A stretch of 38,234 nucleotides of DNA from a virus: IMG/VR virus record IMGVR_UViG_3300011115_000493, positions 1 to 38,234 of that record. One strand, written 5' to 3'. Made by a program: the position numbers and the translations under genes. Of this stretch, positions 8,243 through 19,030 are shown piece by piece (position 1 is the stretch's first letter; every line of letters starts with the position of its first letter). Below the pieces are notes generated by a model. The model was given only the letters and a program-made list of their open reading frames with translations, searched no databases and had not been told where the DNA came from.

Positions 8243-8439
8243 ACTCTCACTCCGTTGCCTTCCCGCCTAGCGGTAAATTTCATGCCTGTCCTCTTTTGTG
8301 CCTTGTAGTTTGCATTACAAATAATTTGAATCTTTGACTCTGGCACAAAGAAGCACTCACCCAATTCCATTTCTTTATAAGGGTATCTTTTAGTCCTCTC
8401 AGAAGGTAATGGAATATTACTTTCCACTGCAATTGACAT
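8227..8439 (-). CDS. Small basic protein, first gene of the late operon
   Basis: 70 residues ending in a basic beta-rich pattern (KRTGMKFTARREGNGVRVWR). I have seen similar short proteins with this ending in aquatic phages, without known function. The ATG at 8439 follows a good AAGGAGA site, and the start codon overlaps the -35 box of the opposing rightward promoter. As the first leftward gene after the divergent gap it could be regulatory, but no HTH is visible. Confidence 0.55.
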   Translation of the reverse strand: MSIAVESNIPLPSERTKRYPYKEMELGECFFVPESKIQIICNANYKAQKRTGMKFTARREGNGVRVWRIE

Positions 8440-8460
8440 ATACTCTCCTTAATCTATTTA
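8433..8460 (+). promoter_or_regulatory. Rightward early promoter
   Basis: A perfect -35 TTGACA (8433-8438) is followed after 16 bp by TATTTA (8455-8460). Transcription would start near 8467, only about 11 bases before the ATG at 8478, which has no clear ribosome-binding site. The -35 box overlaps the start codon of the opposing gene (8437-8439). Confidence 0.55.
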
Positions 8461-8465
8461 ATCCA

Positions 8466-8494
8466 ATAATACACACTATGTTAGAAACATACAA
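8466..8494 (-). promoter_or_regulatory. Possible leftward promoter overlapping the rightward one
   Basis: On the minus strand TTGTAT (8494-8489), a 17-bp spacer and TATTAT (8471-8466) would start transcription near 8459 into the gene at 8439. The -35 is only a partial match. It lies within the first codons of the rightward gene, so the two units would interfere. Confidence 0.3.
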
Positions 8495-9188
8495 TGAGTA
8501 TCACCTTGGCGATAACCTTATACACCTTAATTATCTAAGGCGCTTGCAACTCCCATTAGGTGAGGACATTGTTCACCACTGCAATCCCATGCACCACGCT
8601 CAGCTATTACCGCTTACCGAGGGTACAGCAATCACCTTAGCGGATCTATACATACCACCCACGGCAGTCAACGCTTGGATTGGGCGAGATAACTATTTTT
8701 ATACCCATCCACTACAGGCTAATTGGGTGTTATTTCACTTATCTTGGTTCGATCATTTGTCTAATCTTTTAGGGGTAGACAACCCCATAGCTTGTAGAGA
8801 GGACTTACTCTTTGAGTACCCTGCCTTAAACGCTCCCCTCCCACTATCCTTTGATACCCTCATAATCAACGCAGAGCCGAAATCAAACCAGTTACCAACC
8901 TTTAGTCATGGATTCTTTAACAGGCGGGTAAAAGAGCTATTAAACGCTGGCAAGAGGGTGATTACTACGAATCCCACAGGGATGTGCCTATCGACTTTAG
9001 AGATGGGTATGGATGTAACAGCCATTGGTTCTCTATCCAAATACTGTACCGCCATAGAAGGGGTGGCTACAGGTCCTATTTGGACAACTTTTAATGTCTT
9101 TAATTTAGAAAATATCAAGAGTAGGGTTTTGTACTGCGATATTCAAACAGTCAATCTGACGGATAACACCGTAACCAAAAAACTGTAA
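8478..9188 (+). CDS. GT-B-like glycosyltransferase (family 9-like), tentative
   Basis: 236 residues. The opening ETYNEYHLGDNLIHLNYLR resembles the first strand and GD loop of heptosyltransferase-like (family 9) GT-B enzymes, and the C-terminal half (VITTNPTG ... STLEMGMDVTAIGSLSKYCTAIEGVATGP) resembles their donor-binding Rossmann half. At 236 residues it is shorter than the usual 320-350, so parts of the fold are reduced. The ATG at 8478 is preferred over one at 8409, because the glycosyltransferase-like strand starts there and the longer form would run into the divergent gene. First gene of the rightward unit. Could be a nucleotide-binding protein of other function. Confidence 0.45.
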   Translation: MLETYNEYHLGDNLIHLNYLRRLQLPLGEDIVHHCNPMHHAQLLPLTEGTAITLADLYIPPTAVNAWIGRDNYFYTHPLQANWVLFHLSWFDHLSNLLGVDNPIACREDLLFEYPALNAPLPLSFDTLIINAEPKSNQLPTFSHGFFNRRVKELLNAGKRVITTNPTGMCLSTLEMGMDVTAIGSLSKYCTAIEGVATGPIWTTFNVFNLENIKSRVLYCDIQTVNLTDNTVTKKL

Positions 9189-9663: not shown

Positions 9664-10524
9664 ATGAGCATAGAAAACAAAGTTTATCAACAAGTAACCG
9701 ATAGAATTATTGAGCAATTAGAAAAGGGCGCTATTCCATGGGTTAAGCCCTGGAACGCTACTAGCAGCGCTGATAAGAATGTTATCTCTAAAAAAGAATA
9801 CAACGGGATCAATCGTTTAATTCTAGGTATGTCAGGCTATACAAATAGTGTATGGGGATCATTCAAGCAATGGCAGGAATTAGGCGGTAATGTTGCTAAG
9901 GGTGAAAAAGGCACAATGATTGTTTTCTATTCCCCTATTGTGAAAGAGGCGTTAAACCCTGCCACTGGTAACAATGAGCAATCTATGTATCACTGCTTGA
10001 AATCGTACTATGTTTTCAATGTAGATCAAGTTGAGGGTATCGAGATTGAAAAGCCCGAAGTAACGCCTAGAGTATTTGAGCCCTCAATAGCGCTTGATGA
10101 GCGTATTTTGAAAAGTGGTGCCAATATCAAGCATGGTGGCAGCCAGGCATTTTATAGCCCTAGTACTGACTCAATCGGTATGCCAGATCGTAATACTTTC
10201 ACCGATGATAACAACTATTATGCAACTATCTTGCATGAATTAACGCATTGGTCTGGCGCTAAACATAGGCTTGATCGTACTAAAGGCAAGCGTTTTGCTG
10301 ATAGTGCTTATGCGTTCGAAGAATTAGTGGCAGAAATGGGGGCTGCTTTCCTATGCCAGGACTACGCTATTAGTGGTGATCTACGCCACGCTGGCTATAT
10401 CGGTAATTGGCTTAAGTGCCTAAAAGCAGATAACAAGGCGATATTTAACGCTGCTGCACTTGCTCAAAAAGCAGCAACTTATATTAATGAATTAGATGCA
10501 CTGACTAACCAGGCAGCAGCCTAG
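9664..10524 (+). CDS. ardC: ArdC-type antirestriction protein with zinc metallopeptidase domain
   Basis: 286 residues with two recognisable parts. Residues 1-125 match the ArdC N-terminal single-stranded-DNA-binding domain (QVTDRIIEQLEKGAIPWVKP, then a beta-rich segment ending YYVFNVDQ). Residues 150-275 form a zinc metallopeptidase-like domain with H191-E192-x2-H195 (LHELTHWSG) and a downstream acidic helix (EELVAEMGAAF, E220/E224) for the third ligand. ArdC proteins protect incoming DNA from host restriction and are seen on plasmids and phages. Being the first gene after a promoter suits early expression. The ribosome-binding site AAAGGA lies within a leader shared with two other genes. Confidence 0.88.
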   Translation: MSIENKVYQQVTDRIIEQLEKGAIPWVKPWNATSSADKNVISKKEYNGINRLILGMSGYTNSVWGSFKQWQELGGNVAKGEKGTMIVFYSPIVKEALNPATGNNEQSMYHCLKSYYVFNVDQVEGIEIEKPEVTPRVFEPSIALDERILKSGANIKHGGSQAFYSPSTDSIGMPDRNTFTDDNNYYATILHELTHWSGAKHRLDRTKGKRFADSAYAFEELVAEMGAAFLCQDYAISGDLRHAGYIGNWLKCLKADNKAIFNAAALAQKAATYINELDALTNQAAA

Positions 10525-13994: not shown

Positions 13995-14250
13995 TTTTTT
14001 ATATCAAGAAGGTAAAGGCGGGTTGTTGCAGGAGTTCGACAAAAAGAACCCTGCTGGACCAGATTGGAAGGGTACTCTTAAGCTCAGTAGAGATTACAAA
14101 AAGGGCGAGGAAGTACGCATTAGCGCATGGACTAAGAACAATCCCAAGGGAACGATCATTAGTCTTAACGAAAACAATTGGACACCAAACCCAGATAGTA
14201 ACTACCCCAAGGAGGTTAATCATGTTAAAGACAGCGATGTTCCTTTTTAG
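13987..14250 (+). CDS. Small SSB-like protein with acidic C-terminal tip
   Basis: 87 residues. The core (WKGTLKLSRDYKKGEEVRIS then AWTKNNPKGTIISL) is beta-rich and basic, compatible with a small OB fold. The C-terminus is DSDVPF, close to the DDDIPF tip by which bacterial SSB recruits replication and repair proteins. The ATG at 13987 overlaps the RecT stop by 8 bases; a longer upstream frame is only the RecT shadow. I infer a single-stranded-DNA-binding partner for the annealase. Family assignment is not certain. Confidence 0.6.
   Translation: MASFLYQEGKGGLLQEFDKKNPAGPDWKGTLKLSRDYKKGEEVRISAWTKNNPKGTIISLNENNWTPNPDSNYPKEVNHVKDSDVPF
14209..14215 (+). promoter_or_regulatory. Consensus ribosome-binding site for the secreted peptide gene
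   Basis: AAGGAGG, the full complement of the 16S tail, sits 6 bases before the ATG at 14222, inside the end of the SSB-like gene. It decides that the overlapping 50-codon frame is a real gene with strong translation. Confidence 0.75.
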
Positions 14251-14374
14251 TATTATTTTAATCACGATGCCGATAGCCCAAGCGGGTACTAAATGCGAAC
14301 CTGATAGCAGGGGAGGCTTTTGCTGTTGGGATGTAGAACGAGATGGCATCTTTAAACCAATATCCTGTGCATGA
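14222..14374 (+). CDS. Small secreted cysteine-rich peptide
   Basis: 50 residues. MLKTAMFLFSIILITMPIAQ-A is a typical Sec signal peptide, with likely cleavage after the AQA at 19-21. The mature part is about 29 residues with four cysteines (C25, C34, C35, C49) that could form two disulfides in the periplasm. It overlaps the SSB-like gene by 29 bases and the RusA start by 4. A perfect Shine-Dalgarno predicts high expression. The role is unknown; an envelope-acting peptide (superinfection exclusion, inhibition of a periplasmic protein) is an inference. Confidence 0.65.
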   Translation: MLKTAMFLFSIILITMPIAQAGTKCEPDSRGGFCCWDVERDGIFKPISCA

Positions 14375-14760
14375 TTATTCTTGATCTACCTTACCCGCCT
14401 TCAATCAATAATTATTGGTTGACTAGCGGGCATAGGCGATACATTAGTAAAAGGGGTATGGAGTTTAGAAAAGCAGTCTGGCTTTACTGCTTAGAATGGA
14501 AAATAAGCAAATTGGGAGATCAAGCCGTGATGGTTCACATTGTTTTAAGACCAAGATCAAAGAAGCTCATGGATATTGACAATTGCGCTAAAGCTATTTT
14601 AGACAGCCTAGAACACGCAGGAATTATTACTTCTGATGTCCAGGTTGAGCGTTTAATGATTGAAAGGGGGCAGCCAGTCAAAGGTGGCGGTTGCCGTGTG
14701 TTAATTGAAGTTATGTCCTCCGATAGCTCAGAGTTGAGCCTTTCACAAGAAGGCAGTTAG
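14371..14760 (+). CDS. rusA: RusA-type Holliday junction resolvase
   Basis: 129 residues, the usual RusA size. Key residues of the family are visible: D68 and D70 in MDIDN, K74, and D89 in ITSDVQVERL, after the N-terminal DLPYPPSINNYW strand. RusA dimers cut four-way DNA junctions, resolving branched intermediates before packaging. It fits the exonuclease/annealase module. The ATG overlaps the secreted-peptide stop (ATGA). Confidence 0.9.
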   Translation: MIILDLPYPPSINNYWLTSGHRRYISKRGMEFRKAVWLYCLEWKISKLGDQAVMVHIVLRPRSKKLMDIDNCAKAILDSLEHAGIITSDVQVERLMIERGQPVKGGGCRVLIEVMSSDSSELSLSQEGS

Positions 14761-14815: not shown

Positions 14816-15028
14816 ATGAAAACAGTACCGTACAGAACCAAAACAGGTGTAGAGATTGGCAAGTATTACGAAAGAGATACTCGCCCTGAAATATCAGCCG
14901 ATATGGAGTTAATTCAAAGCATTATGCTTGGAAAATATGAGTCAATAAAGCGTAAAACAGCCATTATTTATGCTTATTTTTTAGGCATTACATTGACAAT
15001 CTTTTGCTTGTTTGTGTTTGCTAAATGA
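14816..15028 (+). CDS. Small membrane protein with C-terminal anchor
   Basis: 70 residues: a polar N-terminal 45 residues (MKTVPYRTKTGVEIGKYYER onward) and one C-terminal transmembrane helix (IIYAYFLGITLTIFCLFVF). I chose the ATG at 14816, 5 bases after GGGGA, over 14804. A GCCAGC/GCTGGC hairpin lies in the 55-base gap before it. Starts the chain of 4-base overlaps leading into the metabolic cassette. Family not recognised. Confidence 0.5.
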   Translation: MKTVPYRTKTGVEIGKYYERDTRPEISADMELIQSIMLGKYESIKRKTAIIYAYFLGITLTIFCLFVFAK

Positions 15029-15468
15029 GGGGTTCAAACACTTATTCTGAAAGACAAACTGTTGCGAACAGAGGTGAGGTGTTGTTTGAGCAGTATTGCA
15101 AAGAAAACCACTATGAATGTAAGCGAGTGGGTTTTGATGAGAAAAACAATGCTGTAAGCACTTTCTATGATTTGTCTACTCTACTACGCAATTTGCCAGA
15201 TTATGTATTAGTGCGCCCTGATAGCACCTATGTGGTCAATGTAAAGGGTACAGCCAACATTAAAAAGAAAGAGATTGATCTGCTGCCACTGATGATGGAG
15301 TGGTTTTCTAGTCGATCAGCGCCCTTAGTCTATGCTTTTTGTTTTGAACATAATGATCCCTTGTTTATTCATCCTGAGCAGATGATTGACTTGTACCGTA
15401 GATCAGTTGATAAACAATGGTCTGATGGGGTCATTTACCGTAATTTGAATTTAATGGAATTTGCATGA
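15025..15468 (+). CDS. Possible PD-(D/E)XK-fold nuclease
   Basis: 147 residues. The layout resembles small restriction-like or resolvase-like nucleases: E18 in NRGEVLFEQYCKENHYECKR, D59 in LPDYVLVRP, and N72-x-K74 in YVVNVKGT. The usual Glu of the ExK pair is replaced by Asn, a substitution seen in some family branches, so catalysis is plausible but not assured. Coupled by ATGA overlaps on both sides. Context (after RusA) favours DNA processing; a fold-only or inactive relative is the alternative. Confidence 0.5.
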   Translation: MRGSNTYSERQTVANRGEVLFEQYCKENHYECKRVGFDEKNNAVSTFYDLSTLLRNLPDYVLVRPDSTYVVNVKGTANIKKKEIDLLPLMMEWFSSRSAPLVYAFCFEHNDPLFIHPEQMIDLYRRSVDKQWSDGVIYRNLNLMEFA

Positions 15469-16082
15469 AACACGCTAGTAAGGCAGAATTAATTGCGTTT
15501 GAGCAGGAAACAGCGCAGTTGTGGGAAAACGGGGATTTACCGTACCTTATTCACCTTTCAGGGGGTAATGAGGATTTTCTGATTGATTTGTTTGGTGAGG
15601 CTAATGAGGGGGACTGGTTCTTTTCTACCCATCGCAATCATCACCACGCCCTTTTAGCAGGAATACCTAAAGATGAGCTACAGAATTCGATTTTGGCTGG
15701 AAATTCTATGTTTGTGTATTCTCGCAAGCATCGTTTTTTTACTAGCAGTGTGCTTGCTGGTACTACTTGTATTGCTGCTGGCGTAGCCTATGCCTTAAAA
15801 GAAGCGGGTAGTAGCAACCGTGTCTGGTGTTTTTTAGGTGACGGGGCTGAAGATCAAGGTCATTTCTATGAAGCGGTCCGTATGGTCGCAGGGCATGATT
15901 TGCCTTGTACCTTCATCATTGAGGACAACAATCGCTCAGTGGATACCACTCTAGCAGGGCGCAATCCCTTTGAGTTTCGGTTTAGGATGCCAGGATGCGT
16001 TATCCGTAACCACTACACCCCTACTTATCCTCATGCTGGTAACGGCACGAAGAAGCACATTATCTTTAAGGAGCGCAAGTGA
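15465..16082 (+). CDS. TPP-dependent enzyme, E1-alpha-like subunit
   Basis: 205 residues matching the thiamine-pyrophosphate-binding half of 2-oxo acid dehydrogenase E1-alpha. Seen in order: STHRNHHHALLAGIP (54-68), which fits the E1-alpha RxHxxxLxxG loop; the AGTTCIAAGVAYALK helix (98-112); and the TPP/magnesium motif G125-D126-G127 followed after 27 residues by N155-N156 (FLGDGAEDQG ... EDNN). E1-alpha is normally 320 residues or more, so this is a stripped-down core. It lacks the long C-terminal region with the phosphorylation loops. Partner is the E1-beta-like gene at 16633. Substrate unknown. Confidence 0.8.
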   Translation: MKHASKAELIAFEQETAQLWENGDLPYLIHLSGGNEDFLIDLFGEANEGDWFFSTHRNHHHALLAGIPKDELQNSILAGNSMFVYSRKHRFFTSSVLAGTTCIAAGVAYALKEAGSSNRVWCFLGDGAEDQGHFYEAVRMVAGHDLPCTFIIEDNNRSVDTTLAGRNPFEFRFRMPGCVIRNHYTPTYPHAGNGTKKHIIFKERK

Positions 16083-16636
16083 AGGTATTGGTTGCTTGTG
16101 AGTTTTCTGGTGTTGTTAGGGATGCTTTCTTGCGGGGGGGGGTAGAAGCTATGAGTTGTGATTTTTTACCAACAGAATCACCAGGACCGCATTATCAAGG
16201 CGATATAAGGGATGTATTAGATTACCCTTGGGATTTGATGATTGCTCATCCACCTTGTACCGATTTATCAGTTAGTGGGGCTAAACATTTTCCAGCCAAG
16301 AAATTGAATGGTAAACAACAATTTGGAGCGTCATTTTTTATGATGTTAGCAAAATCAGATATTTCTAAAATATGTATAGAAAATCCTGTTAGCGTTATGT
16401 CAACCTTATATTGCAAGCCAAATCAAATAATCCAACCTTGGCAATTTGGGCATGGGGAAACAAAGTCTACTTGTTTATGGCTTAAAAATTTGCCAAAACT
16501 TGTTCCTACAAACATTGTTAATGGGCGTGAAACTAGAATACACAAAATGCCACCAAGTCAAGATAGGTGGAAACTAAGAAGCATTACATATCAAGGAATA
16601 GCAGATGCTATGGCATATCAATGGGGTAATTTATGA
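16079..16636 (+). CDS. Cytosine-C5-methylase-like protein with poly-G tract
   Basis: 185 residues, GTG start overlapping the previous stop (GTGA). The N-terminus (VLVACEFSGVVRDAFLRGG, then CDF and GDIRDVL) follows the AdoMet-binding motifs of 5-methylcytosine methylases. AHPPCTDLSVSG has the catalytic-type Cys60, and E101-N102-P103 stands where ENV is usual. No target-recognition domain is present, so it is a short phage relative. A run of nine G (16134-16142) lies in codons 19-22, and the second half is visibly more AT-rich than its neighbours. The gene splits the two TPP-enzyme genes, suggesting insertion. Confidence 0.7.
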   Translation: MKVLVACEFSGVVRDAFLRGGVEAMSCDFLPTESPGPHYQGDIRDVLDYPWDLMIAHPPCTDLSVSGAKHFPAKKLNGKQQFGASFFMMLAKSDISKICIENPVSVMSTLYCKPNQIIQPWQFGHGETKSTCLWLKNLPKLVPTNIVNGRETRIHKMPPSQDRWKLRSITYQGIADAMAYQWGNL

Positions 16637-17148
16637 GCTATAAAGACGCACTAATTCGTGCCAATACCTATTTGGCTGCTGATCCTAAGACTAGGTTTAT
16701 AGGCTATGGCTTACTTAAAGGTCGAGCTTTAGGTACGCTAATCAATGTGCCAGAAGCCCAGATCATTGAAATGCCAGTTGCTGAGAATTTAATGATGGAT
16801 ATGGCTATTGGTATGGCTCTGGTGGGCTGCAAACCAGTAGTGTTCTTAGAGCGCATGGACTTTTTAATGAATTGCATGGATGCGCTAGTTAACCATCTAG
16901 ATAAGATCAGCACGATCTCCCAGGGCGAATTTAATCCAAAAGTCATCATTCGGTGCATTGTAGGCAACAAAAACAAGCCTTTATACACGGGATTGACCCA
17001 TATTCAGGACTTTACCGAAGGTTTACAGGCTATGGTGACTATGCCAGTAGTGCAATTAAAGACCGTTGCTGACATCAATTATTCGTATGAAAAAGCCGAC
17101 AAAGCCTTATATTCAACGGTTTTAGTGGAATATAAGGACTTAATATGA
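16633..17148 (+). CDS. TPP-dependent enzyme, E1-beta-like subunit (pyrimidine domain only)
   Basis: 171 residues matching the pyrimidine-binding domain of E1-beta/transketolase. EMPVAENLMMDMAIGMALVG (46-65) aligns with the xISEnxxxGxAiGaAl motif, with E51 as the glutamate that activates the aminopyrimidine of TPP. KPVVFLERMDFLMNCMDALV and TGLTHIQDF follow in the expected order. The C-terminal transketolase domain of E1-beta (about 150 residues) is absent. With the alpha-like gene it makes a minimal two-domain TPP enzyme. No lipoyl E2 or E3 gene is present, so a dehydrogenase-complex role is unlikely. Confidence 0.78.
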   Translation: MSYKDALIRANTYLAADPKTRFIGYGLLKGRALGTLINVPEAQIIEMPVAENLMMDMAIGMALVGCKPVVFLERMDFLMNCMDALVNHLDKISTISQGEFNPKVIIRCIVGNKNKPLYTGLTHIQDFTEGLQAMVTMPVVQLKTVADINYSYEKADKALYSTVLVEYKDLI

Positions 17149-18239
17149 AAACTAACAAATACTCGGATTTCAAGATTTTTCATGTGGCGGGGAAGCTAAA
17201 TTCGTTTTTAGAAAACACGGTCACAGCGCCCATTTATGTTCGTATCAAGCCAATTAACTTATGTAACCACGGTTGCTTTTTCTGTACCTACAGTACGGGC
17301 TTTAGGGTCAAAGACGGGGGCGAGGAGGAGCATATCCATACAGGTATGCACGAGGACATGAAAGAGGATGACACCATTCCTAGAATGAAAATGCTAGAGA
17401 TACTGCATGACCTATACAAAATGGGTGTCAAAGCAATCACTTACTCTGGCGGAGGTGAGCCACTCATGCACCCAGACATAGTGGAGATCATGGTCAAGAC
17501 TTTGGATTACGGTATGGATCTATCCATTATTACTAACGGTCAAAATTTAGCCAAGGAAAGAGCCGTGGTGCTGCGTAATGCGAAATGGGTAAGGGTTAGC
17601 ATGGACTATACCAATGGCGCAGAGATGAAGCGTTTTAGGAATGTTCCAGAAAAGAGTTTTGACAGCGTGATTAAGAATATCGAGGAGTTTGCGAAGTACA
17701 AAGCAAAAGACTGTGATCTAGCAGTTAATTATATTGTGCACCGCAACAATTACGAAAACTTGGGGGTGTTTACACGCCTATTGAAAAGTATTGGAGTGGA
17801 AAATGTGCGCTACAGCCCTATGTATGTACCAGATTTTTATAATTATCACAATGCCATTGCTGATTCTGTTAATGCTCAACTTAAAGAGGCTGCCACGCTG
17901 GTTGACGATAGCTTTAGCGTTAATAGCACTTACAACATTACTCCTGGCAGCAGTCACTCGCCCATCAGGTCTTACAACCGTTGCTACATCATGCAGACAG
18001 TGCCCGTCATCGGGGCTGACCTTGGGGTATACGCCTGTCACAACAAAGCCTACGACAGCACGGGGCTTATCGGTTCGCTAAAGGATCAGAGCTTTAAGGA
18101 TCTATGGTACAGCCAAGCAACCAAGGATTACATGATGAACTTCAATGCCAAGCGTACCTGTTTGCATGAGTGTTCTAATGACCGCAAGAATATTTTGATT
18201 AACGAAGTAGTACAAGCCAGTACCGATAACTTTATTTAG
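17145..18239 (+). CDS. Radical SAM/SPASM-domain enzyme
   Basis: 364 residues. Residues 34-47 (IKPINLCNHGCFFC) hold the radical SAM cluster motif C40-x3-C44-x2-C47. SGGGEP (101-106) is the SAM-binding glycine motif. The C-terminal region has further cysteines (C280, C298, C339, C343; GVYACHNKAY and CLHECSND) as in SPASM domains carrying an extra iron-sulfur cluster. These enzymes start radical chemistry on peptides, sugars or other small molecules. An insert at 55-75 rich in His and Glu is unusual. ATGA overlap with the E1-beta-like gene ties it to the TPP cassette. Confidence 0.85.
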   Translation: MKTNKYSDFKIFHVAGKLNSFLENTVTAPIYVRIKPINLCNHGCFFCTYSTGFRVKDGGEEEHIHTGMHEDMKEDDTIPRMKMLEILHDLYKMGVKAITYSGGGEPLMHPDIVEIMVKTLDYGMDLSIITNGQNLAKERAVVLRNAKWVRVSMDYTNGAEMKRFRNVPEKSFDSVIKNIEEFAKYKAKDCDLAVNYIVHRNNYENLGVFTRLLKSIGVENVRYSPMYVPDFYNYHNAIADSVNAQLKEAATLVDDSFSVNSTYNITPGSSHSPIRSYNRCYIMQTVPVIGADLGVYACHNKAYDSTGLIGSLKDQSFKDLWYSQATKDYMMNFNAKRTCLHECSNDRKNILINEVVQASTDNFI

Positions 18240-18247
18240 GGATAGAT

Positions 18248-19030
18248 ATGCCAAGGAAGAAGAAGATAGTAGAGCCAGCCGTACCTCAAAAGATTAAACT
18301 ATTCATAGCTACACCCATGTATGGTGGTATGTGTGCAGGGTTTTACACCCAATCTATTCTGCAATTGGTGAGCGTTTGCCGTGAACATAATATTGATTTG
18401 AGCTTTAGCTTTATGTTTAATGAGAGCCTGATAACACGGGCAAGGAACGCTATCACCCACCAGTTTCTCAAGAGTGACGCAACTCACATGATGTTTATTG
18501 ACTCAGACATTAAGTTTAATCCTGCTGACATAGTGCCTATGCTGTCGGTTGATAAGGAGATTATCTGTGGTGTATACCCTAAGAAGGAGATCAATTGGGG
18601 TAGCGTCAAGCGAGCTATGGATAATGGCGTACCATTTGATAAGCTCAAGAGCCATACGGGTAGCTTTGTGGTCAACCTAGTTGATTATGTAGGCGAGGTA
18701 ACCGTGCCTGTAAACCAGCCAGTCGAGATCTTTAATGGTGGTACAGGCTTCATGCTGATTAAGCGGGAAGTGTTTACCAAACTAGCCGATCATGTACCAC
18801 AATACAGCAATGATGTGGCTGATTTATCAGGGCAAATGCAACAACAAGAAAAGATTTATGAATACTTTGCCACTAGCATTGAACCTGAAACCAATCGCCT
18901 ATTGTCAGAGGATTATCACTTCTGCCGTATCTGGAGATTGATTGGCGGTAAGGTATGGGCAGCGCCTTGGTGTCAGCTAGCCCACATAGGTACATACGCT
19001 TTTGAAGGTAACTTAACGCCCTCGCCCTGA
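18248..19030 (+). CDS. GT-A glycosyltransferase-like protein
   Basis: 260 residues. After a basic start (MPRKKKIVEPAVPQ) the fold opens with KLFIATPMYGGMCAGF, followed by NESLITRARNAIT and a DXD-type motif D85-S86-D87 (MMFIDSDIKF). NGGTGFMLIKREVF and SEDYHFCRIW fit the acceptor and catalytic-base regions of family 2-like or Anp1-like enzymes. It would transfer a sugar in the cytoplasm. Last gene of the rightward unit, 8 bases after the radical SAM gene; its end overlaps the opposing gene at 19013 by 18 bases. Confidence 0.75.
   Translation: MPRKKKIVEPAVPQKIKLFIATPMYGGMCAGFYTQSILQLVSVCREHNIDLSFSFMFNESLITRARNAITHQFLKSDATHMMFIDSDIKFNPADIVPMLSVDKEIICGVYPKKEINWGSVKRAMDNGVPFDKLKSHTGSFVVNLVDYVGEVTVPVNQPVEIFNGGTGFMLIKREVFTKLADHVPQYSNDVADLSGQMQQQEKIYEYFATSIEPETNRLLSEDYHFCRIWRLIGGKVWAAPWCQLAHIGTYAFEGNLTPSP

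Follow-up and report, generated by a model that had tools for sequence, protein, structure and literature searches.

Several described systems come close to the gene cassette analysed here. In the avilamycin and paulomycin pathways, enzyme pairs that resemble the alpha and beta subunits of E1 (AviB1/AviB2 and Pau11/Pau12) are proposed as installers of two-carbon sugar branches in the accessible portions of PMC4425429 and PMC4753412, which describe no radical S-adenosylmethionine (SAM) partner for either pair. Cyanophages S-SM2 and P-TIM68 encode a fused alpha-beta protein (∼52% and 44% identity to the proteins studied here; family PHROG 34187, function unknown) that was deposited as a transketolase central region protein; it has a zinc alcohol dehydrogenase (Zn-ADH) as partner and lies inside a large heptose/lipopolysaccharide (LPS) cluster. 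Such cyanophage clusters (PMC3037559, PMC7378029) contain the Zn-ADH type of the module discussed below, and the accessible portions of both papers do not describe a unit of a thiamine pyrophosphate (TPP) enzyme and an oxidoreductase; whether the clusters are working or stuffer DNA is left open in PMC3037559. Here we analyse a freshwater phage, IMG/VR virus record IMGVR_UViG_3300011115_000493 (38,234 bases, all of which we call the window; a portal protein and a terminase are both encoded in it), in which a split version of the same family, with both domains, is followed by a radical SAM protein (rSAM). We find that alpha, beta and rSAM are a real unit, present in distant phages and archaea in varied gene orders. 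The genes of the window referred to below are as follows.

15465-16082, + strand: alpha, a minimal TPP-binding (PP) domain protein of the E1-alpha/transketolase superfamily, 205 amino acids (a.a.)
16079-16636, + strand: DNA methyltransferase between alpha and beta (PHROG 757, 2e-68)
16633-17148, + strand: beta, a 171-a.a. protein with a pyrimidine-binding (Pyr) domain, lacking the transketolase C-terminal domain
17145-18239, + strand: rSAM, a 364-a.a. radical SAM protein whose auxiliary cluster is single and of the twitch type
18248-19030, + strand: GT, a GT-A type glycosyltransferase with a DSD motif, 260 a.a.
8409-9188, + strand: GT9L, an ADP-heptosyltransferase-fold protein (AlphaFold2 model and Foldseek)
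15025-15468: a 147-a.a. protein directly 5' of alpha, without a family match

The original prediction, made from the letters of the window alone, had listed alpha, beta, rSAM and GT in 15465-19030 with their strand and motifs, all of which we verified in the open reading frames (ORFs) and their residues. It had joined almost all of them by 4-base overlaps; these are found at the four successive junctions from the 15025-15468 ORF through alpha, the methyltransferase and beta to rSAM, but rSAM and GT are separated by an 8-base gap. It had further taken the genes to form a system, an idea to be given up if homologues were never found together; the search did not refute it, as homologues do occur together in unrelated phages, in different orders. 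The interpretation holds in part. Absent from it were the methyltransferase gene that separates alpha from beta, GT9L, the link to ADP-heptose genes and the replacements by Zn-ADH and by true transketolase.

When viral sequences were scanned with alpha, 112 relatives turned up, of which 80 were retrieved. Further scans with other members, together with genome searches, led to a final table of 237 loci, all non-redundant and each with a TPP pair that is either E1-like or a true split transketolase; the counts include related sequences and thus are not counts of independent events. The rSAM family of the window is found in 88 of the 237 loci, Zn-ADH in 119 and other rSAMs in 13 (related rSAM families, eight and five loci). 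No oxidoreductase is in reach in the remaining 17, of which 13 are short-flanked and the other four are all of the transketolase type. No locus out of 237 has both rSAM and Zn-ADH, and none of the E1-like loci with at least 4 kb on both sides is without an oxidoreductase. All four combinations of TPP enzyme and oxidoreductase occur: the E1-like pair is accompanied by this rSAM in 85 loci (plus one also carrying a second rSAM) and by Zn-ADH in 83 loci, and a true split transketolase is accompanied by Zn-ADH in 36 loci and, more rarely, by this rSAM. The partners are nearly all on the same strand, with a median gap of 3 bases where the partner is rSAM and 0 where it is Zn-ADH, and the co-occurrence of the trio is far beyond chance. 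Gene order varies: alpha-(x)-beta-rSAM-GT in the window clade, beside RecE/RecT/RusA; GT-GT9L-beta-rSAM-alpha in a second phage clade, with the major capsid protein on one side and tail-side genes on the other; and beta-rSAM-alpha in a 735-kb phage (LR756501). A tree of alpha has three or more changes of partner: at the deep split, in L165/L207 (fused, within the Zn-ADH clade, with rSAM) and in L075 (a long branch of the rSAM clade that has Zn-ADH as partner). A literature search returned nothing relevant on a TPP plus rSAM unit in phages.

The true split transketolases match Transketolase_N (7e-27) and Transket_pyr (2e-19) and occupy the slot of the fused pair, between Zn-ADH and a PfkB kinase. 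Several are minimal pairs (∼245 + 160 a.a., no C-terminal domain) on viral contigs, beside Zn-ADH or rSAM (L372:7004-8217; L373:7838-9057; L401:7580-8781; L390:7830-9049). Outside viruses, the genome searches recovered only the seed genome in each of Patescibacteria, Cyanobacteria and the phylum of L087, and seven of 327 genomes in the Nanoarchaeota group. Alongside three bacterial/archaeal pairs (L086, L087 and L091) lie glycosyltransferases and more than one radical SAM gene (two or three, all different), which suggests a more elaborate cellular version of the unit.

The alpha protein matches Pfam E1_dh at 4e-18, but over positions 8-164 of the 300-position profile only, and it scores 94 bits against an NCBIfam E1 equivalog with a cut-off of 394, so that a full E1_dh domain is not present. 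Its best match in a PDB profile search is human pyruvate dehydrogenase (PDH) E1-alpha (4e-19); it does not match Transketolase_N, and matches DXP_synthase_N at merely 4e-6. Its motifs are RNHHHAL at 57-63, GDG at 125-127 and EDNN at 153-156, of which GDG, E153-D154-N155 and R57/H59 are conserved. The beta protein is a pyrimidine domain alone (Transket_pyr, 1e-5), with 2-oxo acid dehydrogenase E1-beta proteins as best PDB profile matches (9e-15); its E51 is invariant among 12 relatives and aligned to the Glu of TP(L/I)SE, and H123 is aligned to the conserved His of E1-beta. The pair therefore has the TPP-binding GDG...N and the catalytic Glu/His of E1 enzymes (GDG 125, N155, E51 and H123). Both proteins match PHROG 34187 (2e-68 for alpha, 1e-45 for beta); cyanophages, some archaea and a large number of viral contigs have alpha and beta fused in one protein of ∼400 residues. 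The AlphaFold2 model of one fused relative, L165 (pLDDT 88, pTM 0.91), matches transketolase (2e-13), DXS and PDH E1-beta in Foldseek. Because fused relatives exist and L165 folds like transketolase, alpha and beta are predicted to be two halves of one TPP enzyme. The fold and TPP residues are common to the window pair and split (N-/C-terminal type) transketolases, but the window alpha is of the E1_dh rather than the Transketolase_N type and the 171-a.a. beta has no transketolase C-terminal domain. Central 2-oxo acid oxidation, which the original prediction had already argued against, was rejected: the E1 is truncated, and no E2, E3 or lipoyl partner was found among the cassette neighbours or the 10 large opposite-strand ORFs of the window that were scanned.

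The rSAM protein matches Radical_SAM (2e-17) and SPASM (1e-4) and reaches none of the NCBIfam equivalog cut-offs. It has eight Cys: those of CNHGCFFC (40-47), C190, C280, C298, C339 and C343. C40, C44, C47, C280 and C298 are found in 90 out of 90 homologues, and C339 and C343 in 89 out of 90. It had been labelled a radical SAM/SPASM enzyme; the CxxxCxxC motif and four later Cys are indeed there, but as the auxiliary Cys number four, they would make up one extra cluster of the twitch type, not a full SPASM domain. The PDB profile matches include SuiB and MoaA and, among the top ones, the sugar-acting BlsE, BtrN and DesII. BtrN (profile match 1e-12), a twitch radical SAM dehydrogenase that performs a two-electron alcohol oxidation (PMC9012708), likewise has CxxxCxxC and a four-Cys auxiliary cluster, but it is ∼250 a.a. 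long, compared with 364 here, and the likeness is confined to the radical SAM core.

Since two unrelated oxidoreductases replace each other in these loci, and two types of TPP enzyme do so as well, the same two reactions are most simply catalysed in all of them. Zn-ADH enzymes interconvert alcohols and carbonyls, and in two pathways to aminoglycosides one and the same step is carried out by the Zn-ADH NeoA and by the radical SAM enzyme BtrN. As rSAM and Zn-ADH replace each other exclusively, we infer that rSAM would oxidise an alcohol (dehydrogenation) in the same pathway in which Zn-ADH does the job in sister loci. Alpha and beta would form one minimal TPP enzyme, with the active site between the PP and Pyr domains, and since transketolase occupies the TPP slot, this enzyme is expected to move a two-carbon ketol-type unit, as transketolase does, rather than to decarboxylate pyruvate. 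The product may be a heptose-type or heptose-derived activated sugar; the window phage would take an ADP-heptose-type precursor from its host, and the cyanophage-like relatives would use their own HldE-like kinase, HldE-like adenylyltransferase and HldD-like epimerase. GT9L and the GT-A protein would then act as the transferases, with a virion protein or the host envelope receiving the sugar. Taken as a whole, we consider it fairly probable that the cassette is a module for sugar biosynthesis and transfer, in which two-carbon transfer and alcohol oxidation lead to a heptose-type activated sugar that is attached to the virion or the host envelope; the order of the two steps, the exact sugar and the acceptor are our reading of the gene contexts. 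The unit itself is strongly supported, and the heptose-type route moderately so.

The heptose link comes from the neighbours. Genes beside the Zn-ADH type encode proteins similar to the HldE kinase (9e-32), the HldE adenylyltransferase (1e-34) and the ADP-heptose epimerase HldD (5e-62), all with scores under the curated cut-offs that mark the strict function. HldE- and GmhB-type genes are found on a Prochlorococcus contig (L089) that carries the pair. In archaea, the rSAM family of the window occurs in L085 together with a fused alpha-beta, an HldE-like protein and an epimerase, and other pairs are flanked by related rSAMs, with an HldE-like kinase also in L091 and L494; both the Zn-ADH and the archaeal types lie within sugar/glycan gene clusters. 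Among the two-carbon and sugar-derived groups originally considered, these HldE/HldD-like neighbours, together with the heptosyltransferase fold described below, make a sugar-derived group the most likely product. As to deposited annotations of these neighbours, L002:15483-15821 and related cyanophage genes are deposited as phosphoheptose isomerase, and a relative (L169:14641-14967) looks like a weak HAD-type protein and not an isomerase; neighbours of another type carry the deposited name nucleotidyltransferase, and the one in L169 resembles a cupin, the real adenylyltransferase-like gene of that locus being 14246-14644.

The transferase most tied to the alpha/beta/rSAM trio is GT9L, not GT. 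The original prediction had made the GT-A protein at 18248-19030 the transferase of the cassette; its DSD motif (residues 85-87) is there, but GT is a general phage family whose tie with the trio is limited to the window clade, and GT9L lies outside the interval first described. GT matches PHROG 1574 (8e-49; unknown function), the PHROG 34859 glycosyltransferase (1e-6) and Anp1 (5e-5), and its relatives are found in 65 isolated phages, compared with 13 records for alpha and five for rSAM; two phages akin to the window by terminase (79-81% identity) have GT and no match to alpha, beta, rSAM or GT9L. In other phages GT9L lies immediately 5' of beta, rSAM or Zn-ADH (loci of the L048 and L166/L174 types). 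Searches of GT9L against Pfam, PHROG and PDB sequences were all without a match, and fold search alone gave relatives: its AlphaFold2 model (pLDDT 90.8) has the GT-B fold of GT9/TibC, with TibC as the top PDB match in Foldseek (7e-7), followed by WaaC, WaaF and GT9 (TM score ∼0.55 by query). Among the 27 matches with E<0.001, 20 are to TibC, three to WaaC, one to WaaF, two to another GT9 and one to a designed glycosyltransferase. TibC is a protein heptosyltransferase that uses ADP-heptose. GT9L shares the fold of TibC, WaaC and WaaF and has an invariant GD near its N-terminus, but it is not a member of the TibC (BAHT) family, because it lacks the Cys of the iron-finger motif by which BAHT heptosyltransferases are defined (PMC4358343): among 107 homologues no Cys is kept in at least 95%, and one alone in >60%. 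There is likewise no evidence of the TibC beta-barrel or dodecamer. LGD-type neighbours in L207, L004 and L167 were not joined to GT9L with confidence (hhalign probability of 35%).

For the acceptor, virion proteins are favoured by the fold of GT9L, which is like that of TibC, and by the second clade, in which capsid and tail-side genes flank the trio; the cyanophage context and the literature on phage LPS genes (PMC3037559, PMC7029224) favour the host envelope.

Several observations weigh against a heptose-directed ketol-transfer module. The sequences closest to alpha and beta are E1 subunits of 2-oxo acid dehydrogenases, which makes decarboxylating chemistry possible; the fold matches of L165 to transketolase have a TM score of ∼0.6 with a large root mean square deviation; a true split transketolase occurs with this rSAM in two loci only (rSAM 43-44% identical to that of the window, full length); heptose genes adjoin a few archaeal loci and the loci of the Zn-ADH type, and the window cassette has none beside it; GT9L has no sequence-level match to GT9; and the close IMG/VR loci L316 and L326 carry GT9L and GT without the trio. 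The first of these points is also the basis of a serious rival, in which rSAM or Zn-ADH makes a keto-sugar, and alpha and beta decarboxylate pyruvate and add the acetyl unit to it, as AviB1/AviB2 and Pau11/Pau12 are proposed to do; the dehydrogenase partner would provide the ketone, and E1-like pairs are the very enzymes proposed for two-carbon branches in the papers cited above. Pau11 and Pau12, from actinobacterial antibiotic clusters, are full-length proteins (325 and 345 a.a.), however, compared with 205 and 171 a.a. here, and the genuine transketolase pair in the slot beside Zn-ADH in as many as 36 loci points to ketol transfer, so that we regard acetyl transfer as rather unlikely.

Apart from ketol transfer and acetyl transfer onto a sugar, the cassette could build a group for phage DNA bases as a protection from restriction; DNA was indeed among the acceptors first proposed. 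The window-clade cassette is beside RecE, RecT and RusA genes, in the closest relatives a Mom-like gene or DNA methyltransferases fill the slot between alpha and beta, and an ArdC antirestriction gene is nearby. The DNA-modification genes are exchangeable and missing from most loci, however, and among the genes examined no base-modifying core enzyme travels with the trio beyond the methyltransferases and Mom-like gene of those relatives (the proteins scanned included none resembling a thymidylate synthase or a base-modifying dioxygenase). With the trio of the second clade between capsid and tail-side genes and the Zn-ADH and archaeal types in sugar/glycan clusters, we find this explanation very unlikely. 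It is similarly improbable that the unit is a metabolic helper with no part in glycosylation, serving for instance pentose-phosphate or acetoin-type flux: metabolism commonly employs dehydrogenases and TPP enzymes, and carbon-metabolism genes are found in cyanophages (PMC3037559), but the enzymes here are truncated and without E2/E3, they are tightly linked to heptose-activation genes and heptosyltransferase-fold proteins, and archaeal clusters resembling those for surface glycans carry the unit. That rSAM is a viperin-like maker of antiviral or counter-defence nucleotides hardly comes into consideration. PADLOC pVip models match it at 2e-18, but its score with the NCBIfam viperin model is 58 bits against a cut-off of 180, on which viperin identity was rejected; it has a fixed TPP partner and is swapped with Zn-ADH, and viperins are not known to have C-terminal auxiliary-cluster Cys, four of which are conserved here.

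The slot between alpha and beta contains different genes in the closest relatives: the PHROG 757 methyltransferase in the window, PHROG 67-type and PHROG 116-type DNA methyltransferases, or a Mom-like gene; elsewhere it contains small MNNEPVAW-type ORFs or nothing (direct 4-base overlap of alpha and beta). The methyltransferase at 16079-16636 is thus probably exchangeable cargo, outside the sugar module. Examples of other slot contents are the following.

L011:10615-11715: another type of DNA methyltransferase
L012:10615-11745: another type of DNA methyltransferase
L005:6501-7115: Mom-like gene

A look-alike of the 147-a.a. ORF (by its N-terminal pattern, by eye) is found between alpha and beta in L249 (3757-4248), L252 and L258. 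In L316 (17971-19166) and L326 an ORF of the 147-a.a. type is joined straight to GT, with the trio absent, a natural cassette-free allele. The ArdC-type antirestriction protein of the window is encoded at 9664-10524 (ArdcN, 2e-34; MPTase-PolyVal, 4e-48).

These results give a concrete, testable function to the viral family PHROG 34187. They do the same for some of the genes in the LPS clusters of cyanophages, where PMC3037559 left open the choice between working and stuffer DNA. The natural double replacement (rSAM for Zn-ADH, and an E1-like pair for transketolase) means that the chemistry of one partner can be inferred from the other. It is possible, if still tentative, that we are looking at a new, mostly viral two-reaction route to a heptose-derived sugar, in which each step is performed by either of two unrelated or distantly related enzyme families, in four combinations, and the product ends up on virions or on the surface of the infected host. 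Hundreds of viral fragments carry this two-step module, unrelated enzymes taking the place of one another in it, and from it we predict that phage particles or infected cells bear a new sugar.

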